Source of the DNA: Bifiguratus adelaidae
Lineage: Eukaryota > Mucoromycota > Endogonomycetes > Endogonales
Direction: 5' to 3'
Length of the DNA stretch: 64,000 bases
NCBI GenBank assembly: GCA_002261195.1
Contig: MVBO01000010.1
Coordinates: forward strand, 186,001-250,000
Under the pieces are notes generated by a model. That model worked only from the letters and a program-made list of their open reading frames with translations. It ran no database searches and was not told the origin of the DNA. A program made the translations under genes and the position numbers. Shown here piece by piece: positions 19,447-26,187 of this stretch; the first letter of the stretch is position 1, and each line of letters begins with the position of its first letter.

Positions 19447-21886
19447 CTACAATTCGTACAATCCCAGAGTTATGGCCTTCATCAAAAGTAATCGTACACG
19501 CTCCTCCGAAGCAGACACTTCGGTCCTTGGTTCAAGGTCCCATATGCGGACGTAACCTGGGGTATCGGGGGGTAGTATGATGGAAGTTGTGTGGTCGTAT
19601 GCATCTGCCTTGATTGTTAATTCATCTTCCGACACGCCGAGCTGTGAGGTTTGTCTATGAGACCTCGTCGTCATGTTGCTGTACATTTCCAATTACCTTG
19701 TCCAGATTACGCAGTAACTTGTCGATATCTACGCTTGATCCCCAAAGATATCGGTCATTACACAAATTAACAGCGTCAAATTCGTTGTGAGTCTTGAGTT
19801 GTTCCAGGAACGGTTTATCGTCGCGAAAAGTGAGGACGCCTTGCACTTTGGTCACGAACTTATCCTTTAACATGGATGCCATTGACAACGAATTTCTCTG
19901 CATGGATGGTACCAAAGCGCCGGCAAACTTCAGATGGTAGTTTGGATAGGCGCGTTATCGATATGGTGCTAATGGGAGCAACTGCGACTTACCTTCGATG
20001 CTAACTTGGTGCGATCCCATGCATGATGTAAGGGGATCTTGACGATATGATTGGCACCAAGAAAATGAAAGTTTGACGATGCAGACGCATCGAGCGCAAG
20101 GGAGTTGGCGTCTCTTGTTGTTACCAGATGCTTAGGAGACACTTTGAGGCCAGAAAGTATCGACAGGAACTCGGGCAATGTCAGCTTTTGCTCGATTGGA
20201 TCTTCAATGACTTCAATCTTGGAGGTAGCGCGACAAAGTCGCACCAACTCTGGGGTATATGAATCATTGTCTGCAGATTTCGTGGTAGATTCCCGGTTAC
20301 GAAACGAACGCAGCACTCAAACATATGACAATACCTGTGAATATGCAAACGTAACGCGCCGGATCAGACCATTGCTGTAAGAACCAAGTCAGTGGACCGT
20401 GGGAGAGAGAACGATGGTCGCCAGTAAGAACGACGCAAGGCTCTTTCAAGGTATCACCGGCAACACTATAGTCCGTTGAAGGTAAAGTAAGCAATGAACG
20501 CGCTCCCTCCTCCATCATGGTAACATGAGCAAAAGATGGCTTGCCCTCCAACGTTTTCTCCTTGATGGCGTCTTGTGCCCTACCCAAGGTTAGAAGGGGA
20601 ATTCCGGAAACGCGGGTATATTGGTCGGCTTACCATTCGCCAAAAATGGTAGCATGTTTCATACTGGCTTGTGCTTGCGGACTAATGACATAAATCTTTC
20701 CATTGACAGTTGCTAAGGATGGCACTTGACTCGAGATGCGAGATAGCACATCGTATATGAGCCCAACTGTGCTCATGGGAATAAGTACACTCCTTCCGCC
20801 TTTAATGTTCCAATCTGCAAGAGGGCGGTCAGTTCTTGATTGGATGCAAAATTGGACGATAGGACTGACGTACCAATGAGGGCGCAAAGAACATCCAACG
20901 GTGACTCCAACGGAGTTGGTCCGCTAATGGCGGGTGGTTGCGTCCAAAGAGGACGTCCGAAATCACTTGCAATCACCGCCGTGGCATCTTCAAAGACACT
21001 GACATCCAAGTTTGAAGGATGATATTCGGCATGAAGAGAACAGCTCGAGCAAGCAACAATCTAAAGAGGTAAATGGAATGTCGCTGTGGCAAGCATCGCT
21101 CGTACCTTCTCGTAACCGACTCGGATCTCCCAAATCGCACTGCCCAAGCAATATCCGGCGCTATGCGCCTTGAAAGTCAAAGTGTTGTAAGACCTCTATG
21201 GCAACGTCAGTTTCATCGCATCATACCCACTCTCCCAACCTACCAACTCCTCCCGATAGCGAACTGGTACAATCTTTCTAATGCATGACTCAATATCTTG
21301 CTTAGTATATATGGGTCCCCAATTGGATATCCATCGCTTCATACGGGAGCCACGCGCCAATGCATCGAAATCCTCTTCCAAACGCGTTGTATGCCAATGT
21401 ACCAGTTCTTGCATGATTTGCCTAGAAAAACAGCGTTACAACGCTGTTATGACTCGACGACAGCCACACTGACCTTGTGTATGCAATGACAGGCTCTGTC
21501 GCATAGATGATTCCATCAAAGTCCGTATACTCTGTCAGAAAGGGTAGAGCCAATGCCTTGTCTGGATTTGAGATTAAGAGAATATCAATGGCAGCAACAT
21601 CCACCAGAGTGAAGTCAGGCCCACGAAAGAGAATCGTCGTTTGCTTGACCTCCTTCCCGTCAGTTTTCCAACCAAGGCTCTCGCTGGCGCCATTCTCGTT
21701 CGAATCAGCTTCACGTAGGAAGCCAAACAACACCTGGTCCATAGACGCGTCTTGTACATTCTCCTCGTGAACCAACGGTGGACATTTCCAAGATAGTGGA
21801 CAGTCAATAAGAAACGACGTTTGTCTCAGCTTGAGAAGAAAGCAAGCAGGAGAATCACTGTCTTCTTGTAGACTTCGCACCTTCAT
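19447..21886 (-). CDS. INTS9: Integrator complex subunit 9
   Basis: INTS9 is the catalytically inactive metallo-beta-lactamase/beta-CASP partner of INTS11 in Integrator, which cleaves nascent snRNA and other Pol II transcripts. Nine exons (21886-21474, 21421-21206, 21160-21106, 21060-20874, 20814-20634, 20579-20335, 20270-19993, 19927-19697, 19641-19447) sum to 667 codons, giving 666 aa against 658 in human. Colinear matches include ATEPVIAYTRQIMQELVHW, the TAGYCLGSAIWEIRVGYEK strand, VLIPMSTVGLIYDVLSRI, KEPCVVLTGDHRSLSHG and a C-terminal RVRLLLMKAITLGLYEL helix. The HxHxDH zinc motif of active enzymes is absent, as expected for INTS9. One donor (21205, GTTGCC) is weak. Dikaryotic yeasts lack Integrator, so its presence dates the lineage. 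The start is 28 bp from that of CTK3 on the other strand. Confidence 0.93.
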
Positions 21887-21914: not shown

Positions 21915-23166
21915 ATGGAAGACGAAGTGGATCCATTCGAAGCCAGATTGACCTTCCTTGGGCTACTCTCTCGGCTTAATGCTTCACAAAACTCTATTCA
22001 CAAGGTCTCTGGGTATGCGATGCGGAATAGGCATTTGGCGGACGACTTGTATAGCTGCATATTCGAAGAGTTGGAACAGGTAAGCGATTATAGCTCATGC
22101 GATGTAGTGGACGAGAGTCTTTGCGGCAGAAGCAAATCAGAGCAAGCTTCTCAACGTATTCTCCTGTAGGCGTCCATAAACTCTCGGCTCAACATTCTTT
22201 ACGTGTTCGACGCCTTGTGCTCGGCAGCGCAAAAATACAACTTCACTGCCTACATCGATTGCATACGGCGGGATCTTCCGCGCATATTGAAACTTGTAGT
22301 CCCGGATGACCAGAAGGGATCGGTCAACCTATTGAGTACAAGAAAGGTAAGTTGACTGGAATCCAACTGCTCAACATACTGACGATGACAGATCCTGGAT
22401 CATTGGAGGGCCTGCAAAATCTTCCCAGAGGAGGAGATTGAGAAGGCTGAGAAGCCTTTGCTTTCACGAGAAGTTGCCTACGTTCGGTAATAAGCTTTGT
22501 CATATATCTATTAACCTCTGGTATACTCACGTAGCATTAGTGCATCAGCTTCCGAAGACGACTTTTCTAAGGATGACATTCTGCGTCGAATGGAGGAAGA
22601 CCGGGAGAGGGTACGTCAAGCGGCCTTCTGAAGGCTTTCGTGTATGACTGACCGTTCTATAGCACAAGAAATTGCGTGAAAATATATGGATACGGCCGTC
22701 TGATGAATCGCCTGCAGAAGAATTTGAACAGCTATGGCAGCTGACCGGTCCTTTGAGCGCAGCTGATGAGGAAATCATAATGGCGGAAAATTCGAAATAC
22801 TTACACGGTTACGATTGGCCAGCATACCTTACACTTGATATATTAGATTCCACCCCATCACCTCAACAACCACAGGACTCTACCGGTCCAAAGGATCATC
22901 GTGAAGAAGCAACAATAGCTGCAAAAAGACAGTTGAATGAAGATGAGAATGAAAACGGTTCAAAACGACAGCGATTAGCTGATGAATCTCAAGTTGACAC
23001 TGGCAAGGCGGTTCGCGACGCTGGCATCGGCAATGGCAATGCAAATACGCTCCAGCTTTCGCCAAACATTCAGGAGGCTGAAACAGCCGTCGATGGAAAA
23101 GAGCAACCTCCGTATAACGAAACCCAGAAAATGACCGCATCAGAAGGTAATATCTCGACCCACTGA
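21915..23166 (+). CDS. CTK3: CTD-kinase subunit gamma-like protein (CID domain), possibly continuous with the next feature
   Basis: Ctk3 is the CID-fold subunit of the CTDK-I kinase that phosphorylates Ser2 of the RNA polymerase II tail. Five exons (21915-22079, 22170-22346, 22392-22486, 22535-22610, 22663 onward). The N-terminal fungal Ctk3 block is plain: DPFEARLTFLGLLSRLNASQ, YAMRNRHLADDLYSCIFEEL, INSRLNILYVFDALC and RRDLPRILKLVVPDD, followed by STRKILDHWRACKIFPEEE. A helical segment (ILRRMEEDRERHKKLRENIW) matches the Ctk3 C-terminus, then a disordered tail. If exon 5 is read through, the protein stops at TGA 23164-23166 (338 aa). If the 47 nt intron 23147-23193 is spliced, the frame continues into the Eyes-absent-like domain for a 614 aa fusion. 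Both models keep frame. Confidence 0.88.
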
Positions 23167-23177
23167 ATGTGCTCTTA

Positions 23178-24294
23178 ATGTCTCCTGCACAAGACGAAGA
23201 CAAAGAGGCGGCCTCAACGGTGGGGCAAACTCGAATATCTCCTGAACACGCAAAATTTCGATTGCTGAATCCGGTTGTTGGTCGCAAAATAGTGATATGG
23301 AATCTGGACGAAACCCTCATAGGTAGATATAAAGCGACGTTATGCTAGATTCTCCCCTCACTGTGCTTTTGCAGTGTATAACGCATTATATGATGGTGAC
23401 TACGAGGATCTGGATATCGCCAAGGTCAGTTTACACCGTGCTAAAGCTAGCACAATCTCACAACAGCTATAGCACGGCAAACAGGGGAAAGCTATCGCAA
23501 GGGAAATGAAAGTTTTAGGAAAGGAGATGGAATACATCATTTTTGCCGTCATTGATTCCCACTTTGCTTTTGCCAAATTTGAAGAGAACGACCAACCGCA
23601 TACCAATGCCTTAGAAGGGGCCGTGAATTACGCGGAACTTAACAACACTGACCGCGCGTGCAAGCTTTTAGAGTTGGCGAAATTACTTCAAGCGAAAAGA
23701 ACCTTGTATGATACCCCTGGCGCTTTGGAAGGTAAGTCTATGAAGTACCCGCGCAACCATTCACTCATAGCTTCCACGTAGAGCTCCTGTCAGACCCAGA
23801 GAAGGCACGAATAGCCAACATTTACAAAGACATTGATGATTTGACCGAGGGCTATCTAAGGTTTGCAAGAAGCCTCGTTGAGAAGAGCTCCAGAAGGTAT
23901 GCGCATCAACATGCCCTAACCGAAATCAAATTGACTGTTGCATGTGCAGCGATAACATCAACGTCCTGGTGACCGCCGGCCACCTGATACCCACACTGGC
24001 AAAATGTTTTATTTTTCGATTGCAAGACTTGTTCCCCAGTGATCGAATTTGGAGCTCGCATCTATACGGTGAGTGTTTATGCACTTGATATGCCGCATGC
24101 TTAATGAAAGTTGCAAAGGCAAGGAATGGTGCTTCGAAAAGATTCAATCGTGCTATGGCCAAGGAAATACCTTTATTGCGATTGGTGACGGTGATGAGGA
24201 AGAGGATGCAGCCAATCACATTGGTGCAGCATTTGAGCTCATAGAAGGCCGGAAAAGTCTAGCAGCGTTGTACCATCGTCTCTTTGATCAATGA
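23178..24294 (+). CDS. Eyes-absent-like HAD domain protein, nucleophile Asp replaced by Asn
   Basis: Resembles the conserved EYA domain, a HAD-family Tyr phosphatase and transcription cofactor in animals and plants. Six exons: 23178 (or 23194)-23322, 23375-23424, 23473-23731, 23782-23896, 23950-24068, 24119-24294; 287 aa if it starts at ATG 23178. Matches: GRKIVIWNLDETLI (EYA: VWDLDET), LVTAGHLIPTLAK with the motif II Thr, IWSSHLYGKEWCFEKI with the motif III Lys, IAIGDGDEEEDAA with the acidic motif, and a C-terminal SLAALYHRLF helix. The first Asp of DxDxT, the nucleophile, is Asn (AAT) here, while the other catalytic residues remain. A pseudo-phosphatase or binding role is likely if the base is right. 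It sits directly after CTK3 and may be its C-terminal part. EYA is unusual in fungi. Confidence 0.85.
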
Positions 24295-24379: not shown

Positions 24380-26187
24380 ATGGACTCGCAGCAGCCTTCG
24401 TTCTTCATATTCTCCGGCGGTTCTGCATGCAACAGCATCGTCAAAGCATTTCAGTCACTGAGCACAGATACCTGTTACATCTTGGGTGTATCTGATAATG
24501 GCGGCTCTACAGTAGGTGGAAGCATCTTGGGAGTTGATCGGCGCCATACTCACTGTTACTGGTATGCATAGAGCGAGCTTTTGAGAGTACTGGGAGGTCC
24601 GAGTATTGGTGATCTCAGGTCTAGGCTTACGCGGCTTATCAACACCGATGCTAAGGAGCGACTGGCCATCAAGGACCTTCTTTCCTACAGATTACCAGCT
24701 GGTGGCGATGAGCGAGCCATCAAGGAAGAGTGGGCTGATATCGTTGAAGGACGACACAGGTTAGCATTAAGTGGATGCCTTAAAACTCGCTAAACGCCGC
24801 TAGACTCTGGCGGTCTATTCCCGAAGAGAAGAAGGAGACCATCCGAGGATTTCTCACTTACTTCGATTTTGAGATCCTGAAGCGCGCACACAAGCGATTC
24901 AACTTTCGCAACGGAAGTATTGGCAACTTCTTTCTGACTGGAGCGAGATTGTTTTTCGGATCGTTGGAAGCCGCTATCTTTCTGTTCTCCGCGATCACTG
25001 GCATCACTGACCTCACAACAGTCATACCGGTCATTAACACAAATCACACTGCGACTATCGCAGCCGTATTGGAGAATGGACAGACGCTGGTTGGCCAATG
25101 TGAGATTTCTCATCCTTCCGCCAATCCTCCCAAGAACAACATTAGAGTGAATCCGATAGACGCCTTCTCTTACTTTGCGTCACCTGCGTCACCTGTCAAT
25201 ATGTTCAACGAGAATAGCAAGCACCTTCAAGTCATTTTGAATGACGAAGAAGAACAAGAGCCATTCGAAAGTGATATCAATAGCAATCTCGTCTTTTCAA
25301 AATTTAGCACCTCTCAATTGTCGGCTAGAATCTCGCGAATATTCTACATCAATGAGTACGGTCAAGAGATCTATCCATACCCAAATCCAAAGATATTGAA
25401 GCAGCTCAACACCAAAAAGGTCTTGATCTATTCCATCGGATCTTTGTACACTTCAATCATGCCGTGTCTCATTTTGCGTTCAGTCGCGAAATCAATCGTC
25501 AACTCGTCCTCGTTAACTCACAAAATTCTCATACTCAATGCCTATCCCGACAGGGAAACGCCAAAATACACAGCTGTGGAATTCGTGCAAGCAATCACCG
25601 ATGGTCTCAATTCATCCTTGTTTATCGATGTCCGCAGACAATACTACCATCAGATGGAAAGCTATGTCAAGGAGCACGATGACGTGGACGGCCATGCCCC
25701 CAAATTGTCTACACCTTCCATTATCTCACTTGTTCCATACAAATTGGCAACGGCAACGAAACCAATGGTGATACCCATGGCATCGTCGCGCACCTCACAA
25801 TTACGATCGTCATCTCCTGGCTTCTTTTCACAAGATAGTTCACCTTTAGCGCTACATCCCCATGAGCCTCCAGAAGTGTGCGATTATAGGCCAACGATAC
25901 ACGGGCCATTAGATCAGCATGCCCCACCTCCCTCCTTGCCTGGGACGCCGCCGACTTTCCCTACATTTCCGCAACATATGTTCTCTCCGAAACCGCCGAA
26001 TGCATACATTACACATCTGATCTACCTGAGTAACGGTGGCATGGATGTCGATGTGTCCAAGATCAATGAGTTTGGCATTCAATGTTGTCCTATCGAAGGC
26101 AAATTACAAAAAGATGAAGCTGGAGAAATGAAAGCCATGTTTGACGATCAATCACTGGCCATTGTATTGAAGCAGATTCTGGGCTAA
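24380..26187 (+). CDS. CofD/YvcK-like protein (UPF0052, yeast YNL011C family)
   Basis: Member of the fungal branch of the 2-phospho-L-lactate transferase CofD/YvcK family, whose bacterial members bind UDP-sugars and steer cell-wall and carbon metabolism; the fungal role is unknown. Three exons (24380-24511, 24572-24759, 24804-26187) give 567 aa. The N-terminus has the Rossmann-like strand and loop FFIFSGGSACNSIVKAF with LGVSDNGGST, then PSIGDLRSRLTRL, FNFRNGSIGNFFLTGARLFF, and the C-terminal half with VLIYSIGSLYTSIMPCLILR and KILILNAYPDRET. A proline-rich insertion near 25840-25990 precedes the last strands. It starts 85 bp after the EYA stop on the same strand. Confidence 0.85.

Follow-up and report, generated by a model that had tools for sequence, protein, structure and literature searches.

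Does the forward strand of Bifiguratus adelaidae DNA at positions 21915–24294 encode one protein, in which a Ctk3-type subunit of the RNA polymerase II (Pol II) CTD kinase is fused to an Eyes-absent (EYA) domain, or do two neighboring genes lie here end to end? Positions are those of the window, the whole 64,000-nucleotide stretch that was analyzed. We favor a single 11-exon gene for a 612-residue Ctk3-EYA fusion, and we put roughly 85% on this reading taken jointly with an ancestral origin of the fusion, tethering of the EYA-like domain to the kinase complex, and impaired catalysis by that domain.

The gene model and its Ctk3 part

The 11 exons of the model (Table 1) sum to 1839 nt, corresponding to 613 codons including the stop and to 612 amino acids, two codons short of the 615 given in the original prediction. 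The reading frame is open for all 612 residues, with the Ctk3 part (CID and CTK3_C) at the N terminus, an EYA-like HAD domain at the C terminus, and a linker of ~150 residues between them. The sequence features on which the original prediction rested are in place: a GTAATA donor at 23147, a GCACAAG acceptor ending at 23193, an in-frame TGA at 23164–23166, and an in-frame ATG at 23178, 11 bp past that stop. In the joined model, excision of the 47-nt intron 5 makes the Ctk3 frame continuous with the EYA frame, as had been proposed.

Table 1. Exons of the Ctk3-EYA gene model, with intron 5, the intron on which the choice between one gene and two turns (P0001 is the Endogone protein described in the text).
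Feature	Position	Strand	Content
Exon 1	21915–22079	+	Start codon and N-terminal portion of the CID; colinear with Endogone P0001; PF12243 at residues 5–124
Exon 2	22170–22346	+	Ctk3 CID
Exon 3	22392–22486	+	End of Ctk3 CID; identical exon from gene finder
Exon 4	22541–22610	+	Start of CTK3_C; PF12350 at residues 155–211; identical exon from gene finder
Exon 5	22663–23146	+	Remainder of CTK3_C and linker; if unspliced, continues to TGA 23164–23166
Intron 5	23147–23193	+	47 nt, GTAATA...CACAAG; contains the TGA and ATG 23178; TTAAT branch-like site 15 nt before end
Exon 6	23194–23322	+	Start of EYA domain; motif I W-N-L-D-E, Asn codon AAT at 23301–23303
Exon 7	23375–23424	+	EYA domain
Exon 8	23473–23731	+	EYA cap region, reduced in length relative to the aligned animal and Endogone EYAs
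Exon 9	23782–23896	+	EYA domain
Exon 10	23950–24068	+	EYA motif II (LVTAG); YGK (motif III stretch) straddles the exon 10/11 junction
Exon 11	24119–24294	+	EYA motif IV (IGDGDEEE), C terminus, stop; preceded by intron 10, with its terminal AAG at 24118

A Pfam search of the 612-residue protein located three Ctk3-type domains in its N-terminal third, all above their curated cut-offs: CTK3 (PF12243; E = 1.3e-34, 119.4 bits against a cut-off of 23.7), CTK3_C (PF12350; 4.6e-16, 59.3 bits against a cut-off of 25), and CID (2.2e-13). A sequence search with the N-terminal part also matched the solved Ctk3 CID structure 5ce7 at 4.5e-26. By the domain tests run, this part of the predicted protein is Ctk3. 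It resembles Ctk3/Lsg1, the gamma subunit of fungal CTDK-I, in each of these respects and differs in carrying a C-terminal EYA-like domain, a feature found in one of the 27 CTK3 homologues retrieved (a ratio that applies to these 27 alone, which came from candidates of ~337–1071 residues and include at least two, P0007 and P0009, named as partial). When the other 26 were searched with an HMM derived from four animal EYAs, none gave a match at E up to 10. As described in passages of PMC3171476, Lsg1 of S. pombe assembles with CDK and cyclin subunits and supports CTD Ser2 phosphorylation.

One gene or two

One competing explanation is a pair of tandem genes: a CTK3 gene that ends at the TGA (336 aa) and an EYA gene that starts at the ATG (287 aa), their adjacency being conserved and the corresponding Endogone gene model being an annotation merger. 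We compared the two structures with a simple gene finder whose training set was a 200-kb stretch of a different contig, with 284 predicted introns (median length 52, ~5% with AAG acceptors). Applied to the window, the finder splices 23147–23193. When the donor at 23147 was forbidden, the best alternative was indeed two genes, CTK3 to 23166 and EYA from 23178, but this split model scored 2.3 to 8.3 log units lower, and it fell below the fused model whichever of four start penalties, from -1 to -7, was applied. The finder has faults that bear on this comparison. Its division of exons 1 and 2 differs from that of the homology model, and in a run over the entire window it carries the gene on into its downstream neighbor, the CofD-like gene; it therefore leans toward merging, a tendency that favors the fused model and leaves more room for two genes than the scores suggest.

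The splice signals of intron 5 are weak, which is also in keeping with two genes. Among the 284 predicted introns, its donor lies at the 20.1th percentile, its AAG acceptor at the 2.1th, and its total score at the 7.7th. Intron 3 (22487–22540), which has a GTAATA donor, looks weak as well, with a total score at the 8.1th percentile, yet it is required by the homology model. Intron 10 (24069–24118) has an AAG acceptor at the 2.1th percentile, with a TTAAT site 14 nt from the intron's 3' end (15 nt in intron 5), and is needed by the EYA alignment. An intron of equal score leading into one given frame occurred at ~17% of 199 long-ORF ends, where a long ORF was any six-frame ORF of at least 150 codons rather than a verified gene. 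Given this chance rate, a further point for two genes, we rejected the splice site alone as proof of fusion.

The spacing of the two reading frames was considered in the same way. The 11-bp gap from stop to ATG is shorter than any of the 29 gaps that separate predicted genes on the same strand (minimum 32 bp), which speaks against two genes, although this control is biased because the finder tends to merge same-strand neighbors and so hides short gaps. The predicted layout is compact, and convergent and divergent gaps as short as 2–28 bp make close-set genes easier to accept: across the whole window and 200 kb of another contig, the minimum was 14 bp for 23 convergent gaps and 2 bp for 24 divergent gaps. 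With gaps this short, and with the same-strand control biased, the 11-bp gap alone was likewise rejected as proof. The window sequence by itself makes the fusion likely, not certain.

Our confidence in the fusion derives mainly from the recurrence of this architecture in two fungi that have diverged from each other. The single EYA-bearing homologue, P0001 of Endogone sp. FLAS-F59071, is annotated as one protein of 922 aa with Ctk3 followed by EYA, the order seen in the window protein; the annotation is itself a prediction, made on a contig of 5372 bases. It matches CTK3 at 1.5e-36, CTK3_C, and the EYA model TIGR01658 at 1e-47 (163.2 bits, also below the curated cut-off of 195.3), and a scan with the whole protein matched EYA2 at 2.8e-29 and Ctk3 5ce7 at 2.1e-25. 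Unlike the window protein, it has a linker of ~410 residues and keeps W-D-L-D-E in motif I. In-frame Met residues at 516 and 520, ~100 residues ahead of the EYA domain and upstream of W-D-L-D-E at 621, could serve as starts for a separate Endogone EYA gene, but two genes would then require an identical misreading in two genomes. We regard two tandem genes as unlikely. The proposal of a Ctk3-EYA fusion is well supported, chiefly by the Endogone protein, and the outcome that would have counted against it, orthologues always encoded at separate loci, is contradicted by the Endogone gene model.

The original prediction had further suggested that the same DNA yields two products by alternative splicing: the fusion when intron 5 is removed and Ctk3 alone (336 aa) when it is retained. 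A weak donor and an AAG acceptor could lower splicing efficiency and thereby produce such a mixture. However, intron 10 is similar in its acceptor and in the position of its TTAAT site, and it must be spliced for a complete EYA domain. Retention of any intron that contains a stop would truncate Ctk3, and the analysis yielded no positive support for the coexistence of both forms, which we consider improbable.

Returning to the fusion as the sole product, we infer that it probably goes back to a common ancestor of this fungus and Endogone. A CTK3 tree of 25 rows (P0021, P0022, and P0023 were left out beforehand) grouped the window protein, the Endogone protein, and three Umbelopsis proteins with support of 84/17. 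The window protein forms a long branch, the tree is without a window-Endogone pairing (18% of 200 bootstrap trees), and the bootstrap had not settled. In the B. adelaidae assembly, which may be incomplete and was searched exon by exon with the best candidates scored, EYA (three exon matches) and CTK3 (two) were found only at the Ctk3-EYA locus. A further search for EYA proteins, covering 7994 candidates that shared most words with the query and were 0.55 to 1.75 times its length, yielded six, namely the Endogone protein and five from animals. These six include no stand-alone fungal EYA; the 672-aa Piromyces protein named in PMC8069645 is one example of a kind that such a search could miss. The EYA region had no match in a protein database search that missed the Endogone protein too, so that result is no evidence of absence. 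An AlphaFold model of the Endogone protein (15 sequences, mean pLDDT 51.2, confident for the CID only) gave 5ce7 and then EYA2 as the best Foldseek matches, the latter with an rmsd near 11; the EYA2 matches to this model add little beyond the sequence evidence.

An EYA-like domain with an altered nucleophile position

The C-terminal domain of the window protein resembles the EYA HAD phosphatases in comprising an EYA domain of ~250 residues. Its match to the NCBIfam EYA model TIGR01658 had an E-value of 1.5e-39, with a score of 136.4 bits that lies below the curated cut-off. Solved EYA3 (9n0y) and EYA2 (4egc, 3hb0, 3geb) structures were matched at 2e-25 to 5.7e-29, and the HMM from four animal EYAs matched the window protein at 1.7e-40 and the Endogone protein at 3e-38. 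Identity over the EYA domain is 43.4% with Endogone (226 paired columns), compared with 31.1–35.3% for the four animal EYAs; a BLASTP alignment of the window protein with the Endogone EYA contained 98 identities in 283 columns, or 35% with gaps counted.

We examined the catalytic motifs using the definitions found in parts of PMC8069645 (Ser/Thr in motif II, Lys in motif III, acidic residues in motif IV), and the motif III Lys was assigned by reading the alignment. Motifs II, III, and IV align with those of animal EYAs, and the second Asp of motif I is retained. In contrast, the first Asp of motif I, present as W-D-L-D-E in Endogone and in the four animal EYAs, is replaced by Asn in the window protein, a change that the original prediction had overlooked and that is new here. 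According to the same portions of PMC8069645, this first Asp is the nucleophile, and the Figure 2 legend describes both motif I Asp residues as completely conserved across the examples displayed, which come from animals, plants, and fungi. The domain also departs from EYA phosphatases in its shorter cap region, relative to the aligned animal and Endogone EYAs, and in having Ctk3 as its N-terminal partner.

The same substitution has been studied in animals. Drosophila Eya D493N (GAT to AAT) is inactive as a tyrosine phosphatase, and that activity is not needed for development, as reported in sections of PMC3595212. Murine Eya3 with the equivalent change kept measurable activity in the experiments described in parts of PMC5673202, and we therefore prefer to call such a domain strongly impaired rather than dead. 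On the basis of the Asp-to-Asn change and the shortened cap, we predict a strongly impaired phosphatase. Since the nucleophilic Asp is missing, we did not file the domain as an EYA phosphatase; its catalysis in B. adelaidae is probably impaired, and it is probably not a normal member of that family. Alternatively, the Asn could be a sequencing or assembly error in an ordinary active EYA: the residue is seen in one assembly, motifs II–IV are retained, and a single base change would be enough. The shortening of the cap argues against this explanation, which we judge very unlikely. An exon-by-exon search of the genome for SIX1_SD returned no match at E up to 0.1; this search had no eukaryotic positive control, and its one control match, from Thermotoga maritima, fell below the cut-off.

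Possible roles and genomic setting

Gene fusion is a hint that two proteins act together. In the mechanism we propose, one gene would supply Ctk3, the gamma subunit of the Pol II CTD Ser2 kinase, joined to an EYA-like HAD domain. The Ctk3 part (CID and CTK3_C) would, by analogy with its family, dock with the CDK and cyclin subunits of the complex, and the linker would keep the EYA domain close to the kinase, hence close to elongating Pol II. The Endogone EYA, with its catalytic Asp retained, may act there as a phosphatase; we can only guess at its substrate, which might be CTD phospho-Tyr1 or one of the kinase complex's own subunits. The B. adelaidae module, as a strongly impaired phosphatase, would have been retained for binding or scaffolding. 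Such a non-catalytic role is plausible because phosphatase-dead Drosophila Eya supports development (parts of PMC3595212). A bolder version, in which EYA is built into the CTD kinase complex as an active Tyr1 phosphatase in Endogone and as a pseudophosphatase here, for example a reader of CTD phosphotyrosine, is put forward as a speculation that we consider doubtful. Canonical YSPTSPS CTD heptads with Tyr1 are encoded in the genome. The idea that EYA stands in for a missing CTD phosphatase was examined for RPAP2/Rtr1 and Ssu72 and, for these two, rejected, as both have matches in the genome.

In the open literature, as distinct from subscription papers and preprints, we found no paper pairing "eyes absent" with Ctk3, CTD kinase, or Mucoromycota. 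Section 7 of PMC8069645 records EYA in animals, plants, and choanoflagellates, states that the role of early EYA domains is open, and mentions five hypothetical fungal EYA proteins as uncharacterized, with no CTK3 partner named in that section. The Endogone protein is already public and is named for its Ctk3 part only; we count the fusion as a new way of combining two known families. Its presence in two fungal genomes offers a concrete, testable place for a fungal EYA to work, and a natural Asp-to-Asn copy alongside an Asp-bearing relative would let catalytic roles be set against non-catalytic ones. If the bolder version above is true, EYA, best known from animal development, would be tied to the general transcription elongation machinery.

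Two neighboring coding stretches complete the picture of the locus. Directly downstream lies the CofD-like (PF01933) gene at 24381–26187 (+), with a domain match of 1.6e-20 in 24784–26187 and a start at 24381 that was set by eye. On the other side, an Integrator subunit 9-like coding stretch at 21422–21886 (-), matching INTS9 7bfp at 3.3e-10, is arranged head-to-head with the Ctk3-EYA gene. The predicted start codons of the two are 28 bp apart, and therefore these two Pol II regulation genes may share a promoter.
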